DNA from: an uncultured Clostridia bacterium
GTDB taxonomy: Bacteria; Bacillota; Clostridia; TANB77; CAG-508
Reading direction: 5' to 3'
Assembly (NCBI GenBank): GCA_947623555.1
Contig: CANQGW010000013.1
Coordinates: forward strand, 1 to 35,206
Length of the DNA: 35,206 nt
The translations under genes and the position numbers were made by a program. Below, piece after piece: positions 33,677 to 33,895 of the stretch (position 1 is the stretch's first letter; each line of letters begins with the position of its first letter). The notes under the pieces are model-generated. The model saw only the letters and a list, made by a program, of their open reading frames with translations. It was not told where the DNA came from and ran no database searches.

Positions 33677-33706
33677 TTTTCTTTAAGGTTTATACTTAAA
33701 GAAAAT
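33677..33706. repeat. 30-bp inverted repeat, left arm
   Basis: Perfectly complementary to 33866-33895. Each arm is itself a hairpin: TTTTCTTTAAG, seven bases, CTTAAAGAAAA. It lies immediately before the ribosome site of the prepilin-like gene. Confidence 0.9.
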
Positions 33707-33709
33707 ATC

Positions 33710-33754
33710 AAAATGCTTGTAATTAGCGTTTCCGCTAAATTACAAGCATTTTTT
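33710..33754. terminator. Strong bidirectional hairpin inside the invertible segment
   Basis: AAAATGCTTGTAATT.AGCG pairs with CGCTAAATTACAAGCATTTT with one bulged base and loop TTTC. A T-run follows on both strands. In the present orientation it shields the prepilin-like gene from transcription entering from the right. Confidence 0.7.
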
Positions 33755-33824
33755 AAAGTTCAAAAAATGAGAAATTTTTAAAAATTTTAATCAAAAAATT
33801 TATACAAAACTTTTTCGTTTTTCC

Positions 33825-33853
33825 TTGACACTCATAGCTTTTATTGCTATCAT
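33825..33853 (+). promoter_or_regulatory. Strong promoter between the inverted repeats, pointing right
   Basis: A perfect TTGACA, a 17-base spacer and TATCAT (one mismatch). It points away from the prepilin-like gene and towards the 3' end of the next gene. Inversion between the two 30-bp arms would place it about 60 bases before the prepilin-like start, facing it. Confidence 0.75.
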
Positions 33854-33865
33854 AAACATATAAAA

Positions 33866-33895
33866 ATTTTCTTTAAGTATAAACCTTAAAGAAAA
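33866..33895. repeat. 30-bp inverted repeat, right arm
   Basis: Perfect complement of 33677-33706, with 159 bases between the arms. The inner hairpin followed by TTTTTTGTTTTTT also acts as a rightward terminator, directly downstream of the promoter at 33825-33853. Confidence 0.9.

Follow-up and report, generated by a model that had tools for sequence, protein, structure and literature searches.

The window, the whole stretch of 35,206 nucleotides analyzed here, belongs to a 1.39 Mb genome of an uncultured bacterium (G000), a fragmented population assembly of 62 contigs; the relatives of this bacterium are mostly gut Clostridia. A prepilin-like gene of 495 amino acids, with a GTG start codon and the N-terminus MLKNKGITLIALVVTIVVLLILAGVSITAVFG, occupies positions 32171–33658 of the minus strand, preceded on that strand by the Shine-Dalgarno-like sequence AAAGGAGG (33664–33671). 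The element under study, at 33677–33895, lies upstream of the gene. As originally predicted, it consists of perfect inverted-repeat arms of 30 bp each (33677–33706 and 33866–33895) that enclose an interior of 159 bp (33707–33865). Next to the gene-proximal arm the interior carries a strong hairpin followed by a T-run, a terminator-like arrangement (33710–33752; fold −21.7 kcal/mol, z −7.6). Near the opposite arm is the promoter TTGACA-17-TATCAT with a TG ahead of its −10 box (33825–33853), which lies on the plus strand and is directed away from the prepilin-like gene. Short inverted repeats around a promoter-bearing segment are the arrangement of an inverton.

Tyrosine recombinases act at sites composed of a half-site, a short asymmetric overlap and a second half-site, where the overlap spans 6–8 bp and must be identical in both partners; the overlap of serine recombinases is 2 bp. 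Each arm of the element is such a complete palindromic site, with two 11-bp half-sites around a 7-bp asymmetric spacer (11-7-11). The gene-proximal site, TTTTCTTTAAG-GTTTATA-CTTAAAGAAAA, extends over 33677–33705 with its spacer at 33688–33694. The gene-distal site lies in inverse orientation at 33867–33895, and its spacer TATAAAC (33878–33884) is the exact reverse complement of the proximal one. Together with the T-run that follows it, the distal site folds into a terminator-like hairpin on the plus strand (33864–33905; −10.8 kcal/mol, z −4.5), positioned to meet the outward promoter in the OFF orientation. The proximal site of the window element is not followed by a T-run, and an A/T tract past the upstream arm occurs in nearly all copies of the element. 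The promoter direction and both hairpins agree with the original prediction, which had also set the inverted promoter some 60 bases upstream of the gene and the strong hairpin behind it; by mirror arithmetic the −10 box would come to lie approximately 61 bases upstream of the start codon. Absent from that prediction were the genome-wide family of such elements and the double role of each arm as complete recombinase site and terminator. Four promoter-like sites were found in the window versus 3.9 expected from shuffled sequences, and the promoter taken alone would not be significant. The recombination-site pattern, however, has an expected count of 0 for the window, and the genome contains 29 copies of the whole element; thus, the element is not a product of chance.

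A search of G000 with 361 bases around the window element yielded approximately 30 near-full copies, and the stretches retrieved around these matches contain at least 29 complete elements. The site-to-site spacing is 190 or 191 bp in all 29. Each stands at the same short distance from a gene beginning MLKNKGITLIALVVTI, with a gene-side flank in common, and the 29 downstream genes share one N-terminus, forming a set of paralogous surface genes with one invertible promoter each; about 36 genes in G000 have the prepilin-like N-terminus of the window gene. The TTGACA −35 box, the 17-bp promoter spacing, the stem of the inner hairpin and the AAGGAGG of the Shine-Dalgarno-like sequence are kept in all 29 copies, whereas the interior outside the sites, the −35 box and the spacing diverges by up to 20% between copies. 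A genome-wide search with the site pattern returned 68 sites and, with a reversed control pattern, 0, so about ten sites are solo sites outside complete elements. The multiplicity of copies with inverted ends, together with these solo sites, is what a dispersed family of miniature transposons or repeats would leave, with palindromic ends and a promoter-like sequence by coincidence. Such an origin is extremely unlikely, as all 29 full elements occupy one fixed position before a single gene family and the pairwise spacer matching in the relative G119, described below, is not expected of transposon ends. Several solo sites lie just 3′ of other genes and resemble intrinsic terminators; those at L015:2918, L019:145, L020:9874, L032:3252, L033:1062 and L035:3231 are followed by a T-run and some are preceded by an A-run. 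A role of the solo sites as integration targets was considered and found unsupported by their flanks.

Both orientations of the interior occur between unchanged flanks. The promoter is directed away from the gene (OFF) in 28 of the 29 elements, the window copy included. In the remaining element (C18:27620–27838) the interior is reversed and both flanks retain the usual arrangement, which is the ON orientation. The neighboring copy on that contig is in the OFF orientation. The interiors of these two copies are identical at 157 of 161 positions when one is flipped versus 50 of 161 when it is not, and the 300 bases downstream are identical at 287 positions in the same orientation. This is the sequence expected of a before/after pair, although the pair represents two paralogous loci and not one locus. 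The metagenome assembly is a population consensus that is broken at the element repeats, and orientations were compared between loci rather than within one.

Among 144 further genomes of the family, none had a match to the element DNA above chance, so relatives were compared by layout instead of by DNA similarity; likewise, the arm pattern had no match in the genome_contigs collection, from which the bacterium's own genome may have been left out. Equivalent elements that differ in both arm and interior sequence precede prepilin genes in two other genera, g16 and g9. In G135 (g16), elements were found at 22 of the 24 prepilin genes examined first, one of them reversed. Across g16, reversed copies number 1 of 24 in G135, 2 of 14 in G221, 0 of 12 in G268, 1 of 36 in G291 and 0 of 29 in G346, where several sets are incomplete samples and identical spacers were required, so that this count says nothing on the spacer rule described below. 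One of ten elements is reversed in G119 (g9) and one is unclear. Most genomes examined contain 10 to 36 counted elements. Among the 112 majority copies of g16 the predicted promoter is directed away from the gene in 89, toward it in 2 and tied in 21, and it is directed toward the gene in three of the four reversed copies. In 107 of the 112 majority copies the strongest hairpin lies on the gene-proximal side, and in three of the four reversed ones on the gene-distal side. By these directions, OFF and ON can be assigned alike in three genera, and ON is rare in all three. The paralogues and the mostly OFF relatives support the proposed invertible promoter with the window copy in the OFF state, and the opposite orientation, whose complete absence was to speak against the proposal, was found in both groups. 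The total for G000, g16 and G119 is 6 reversed of 154, an ON share of approximately 4% of the elements in assembled genomes. We do not infer strict mutual exclusion: two copies are reversed in G221, and the overall share is as compatible with independent rare switching as with exclusion. In G135 (L123, L169, L175, L207, L213 and L216) a second promoter-like sequence, TTGACT-17-TAAAAT, lies between the element and the gene and overlaps the perfect palindrome AAGTATT-GACTT-AATACTT, outside the invertible part, which suggests an added layer of control.

The spacers follow a simple rule. G000 has two versions, GTTTATA and GTATATA, and both arms of any element always agree; the permutation value for this matching is small, being computed on 28 pairs with common descent ignored. 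Mismatches within spacer pairs amount to 0 of 203 positions in G000, 0 of 70 in G119 and 0 of 154 in G135. The G119 sites were sought by their half-sites only, and spacers were not used to find them. No two of its ten pairs have a 7-bp spacer in common, but the two sites of each pair always do (10/10), and the absence of spacer mismatches compares with 39 of 180 half-site mismatches (about 4e-8 at the half-site rate). The paired half-sites around an identical overlap have the form of a tyrosine recombinase site, and an 11-7-11 organization in which the spacer is constant within a pair and changes from pair to pair fits a tyrosine rather than a serine recombinase. This selective conservation bears on whether the elements are relics locked in the OFF state by divergence, duplicated along with their genes after flipping was lost. 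The 28 OFF copies of 29, the rarity of reversed copies everywhere (6/154) and a broken integrase frame in the G119 assembly are compatible with such decay. However, sites, −35 box and spacing persist while the remaining interior diverges, the inner half-sites and spacers of G135 have 0 mismatches versus 44 of 198 in the outer half-sites, and the recent duplicate pair on C18 stands in opposite orientations. Loss of flipping is accordingly very unlikely.

An invertase outside the window had been envisaged, and a good candidate was identified. Above the cut-offs used, G000 encodes seven tyrosine and eight serine recombinases; all of the latter are at least 340 amino acids long and none lies beside the window element. 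The candidate is a stand-alone tyrosine integrase of 314 amino acids (G000:C4:7666–8607) with Phage_integrase and SAM-like domains, located between chromosomal genes. Of 390 genomes in the family, 46 encode a close homologue, and these represent 12 genera. In 5 of 30 loci from relatives a homologue stands directly before an inverton with the core (T)TTAAG-N7-CTTAA(A), versus 0 of 300 shuffles, and in two of them (G291 and G358) a prepilin gene then follows. The same adjacency and core were found at 12 of 80 loci from named assemblies, which partly overlap the 30-locus set, versus 1 of 400 shuffles. The integrase at L377 is 57% identical to the candidate, and its inverton has the half-sites TTCTTTAAG/CTTAAAGAA, as in the window arms. 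The gene order integrase, inverton, prepilin is found at L235, L244 and L376, and in G119 the integrase adjoins a prepilin gene. The G119 integrase gene (L125:952–1885) is frame-shifted in a T10 tract, which may reflect a sequencing error, decay or slippage switching. In the same-genus genomes G076, G054 and G028, from which this integrase is absent, prepilin genes are present, but the stretches examined upstream of them contain no such repeat. An adjacent inverton occurs at just a minority of integrase loci.

The C4:7666–8607 integrase is the likely recombinase for the elements, acting in trans, judging from these sequence associations. The assignment is a strong lead and not proof because other integrase-bearing genomes also have no prepilin invertons: none was found before the prepilins sampled in G020, G143, G139, G005, G162, G330, G352, G367 and G338. 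Such genomes, and the number of recombinase genes in G000, would also be compatible with inversion-competent elements that are flipped by another enzyme, be it one of the XerC/XerD-type genes on C4, one of three tyrosine recombinases on C59, or a large serine recombinase. This is unlikely. The 11-7-11 site and the spacer pattern are of the tyrosine type and not of a serine enzyme with its 2-bp overlap, the XerC/XerD-type genes are general housekeeping genes, and the C4:7666 family is the sole recombinase family found here beside invertons with the matching core. The three C59 genes differ from one another and lie in tandem on one short contig, an arrangement typical of a mobile element.

The prepilin identity of the genes is weakly indicated by their sequences. 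The PF07963 N_methyl match has an E value of 0.009, below the curated cut-off, and the match to the MshA pilin N-terminus reaches only 0.94. The prepilin-like proteins reached no Pfam cut-off, showed no other Pfam family and contain no Glu at position +5. The AlphaFold model of the protein encoded by the ON gene is poor (mean pLDDT 42.6). Many of the prepilin-like proteins end in RGGSF...GFRVVLYVK with highly variable positions between the two motifs (L012:3473–4855 and 5358–6767, L014, L016, L021, L024, L025, L027 and L034). This C-terminus is reminiscent of sulfatase-modifying-factor or C-type-lectin domains, with a best E value of just 0.99, to 1y4j. Diversification of the C-termini by a diversity-generating retroelement was considered and is not supported: the sole reverse transcriptase belongs to a phage-like region and has a separate target, and the prepilin loops vary at third codon positions too. 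That retroelement, at L053 (G000:C21, around 1974–2672), comprises the reverse transcriptase, a likely accessory protein and a template/variable repeat pair that is 80% identical, with differences at template adenines within the coding part. In the window, a sortase gene adjoins a gene for a protein with SpaA and thioester domains (27741–30799); the two probably form a sortase-type pilus or adhesin cluster, not far from the prepilin-like gene.

Anatomy, orientations and conservation, which are read directly from the DNA, favor a single interpretation. The element at 33677–33895 is very probably a site-specific invertible promoter, OFF in the assembly, and belongs to a set of no fewer than 29 paralogues, each controlling a single prepilin-like gene and likely flipped by the trans-encoded C4 integrase. 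For its operation we infer the following steps of inversion, promoter firing and termination. The integrase would pair both sites of one element, and strand exchange within the 7-bp spacer would flip the interior. In the OFF orientation the promoter would fire outward into the terminator formed by the distal site while the inner hairpin would stop read-through into the prepilin-like gene. In the ON orientation the inner hairpin would lie behind the promoter, and the transcript would run through the T-run-less proximal site to reach AAAGGAGG. With a low ON share, a cell would produce a single prepilin variant or very few at any time, which would generate surface diversity across the population; through one DNA-flipping enzyme, the population can probably display varied surface proteins. 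A broader scheme is conceivable but doubtful, namely a genome-wide, nearly one-at-a-time pilin display in which one tyrosine integrase, acting in trans, inverts dozens of dispersed pilin promoters and, in some species, a separate 7-bp spacer code for each promoter keeps flips within the element and prevents rearrangement between copies.

Several known systems share parts of this design. According to the summary in PMC10502178, Mycoplasma penetrans has 38 mpl genes, paralogues for P35 surface proteins that are each switched ON or OFF by an invertible promoter of their own, and the elements described here resemble them as a large paralogous surface-gene family. The M. penetrans genes, however, encode lipoproteins, lie in three clusters and belong to a wall-less pathogen, whereas the prepilin-like genes are dispersed over a Clostridia-type genome and their elements have an internal terminator and 11-7-11 sites. 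The elements thus appear to work like the mpl/P35 system and are not a member of it, their products not being P35-type lipoproteins. In Bacteroides fragilis, the master serine recombinase Mpi controls at least 13 dispersed invertible promoter regions for surface structures (PMC5903667). Action of one recombinase at a distance on many dispersed promoters would be the shared feature, here with a candidate enzyme, but both that enzyme and the site are of the tyrosine type and not those of a serine invertase, and the targets form one paralogous gene family instead of different operons. The tyrosine recombinase RecV of Clostridioides difficile inverts several unlinked short promoter or leader elements, among them those of cwpV, flg and cmr (PMC5903667; PMC9286219); unlike the approximately 29 near-identical elements of one gene family described here, its seven switches have differing repeats and serve unrelated genes. 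A tyrosine-type integrase beside invertons in gut Clostridia was described as invertase group 35 with inverton group 139 (PMC11892184). These groups may represent the same broad family as the present elements, a likeness drawn by description and not by repeat motif, and the main text of that paper gives no link to pilins. No paper on a prepilin-gene inverton system was found in the open-access literature, of which coverage was incomplete. An association of tyrosine integrases with invertons is on record for gut Clostridia (PMC11892184); the present elements add to it a family of pilin-like genes, a layout in which the site is also a terminator, and the pattern of the spacer code.

With the natural spacer set of G119 one can test directly by what means inversion systems with many copies escape harmful recombination from copy to copy, and also whether expression is mutually exclusive or just rare. 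For these small-genome, uncultured Clostridia-type bacteria, the elements would place a large pilin-type antigenic repertoire under site-specific promoter inversion, with a candidate recombinase and a defined site.
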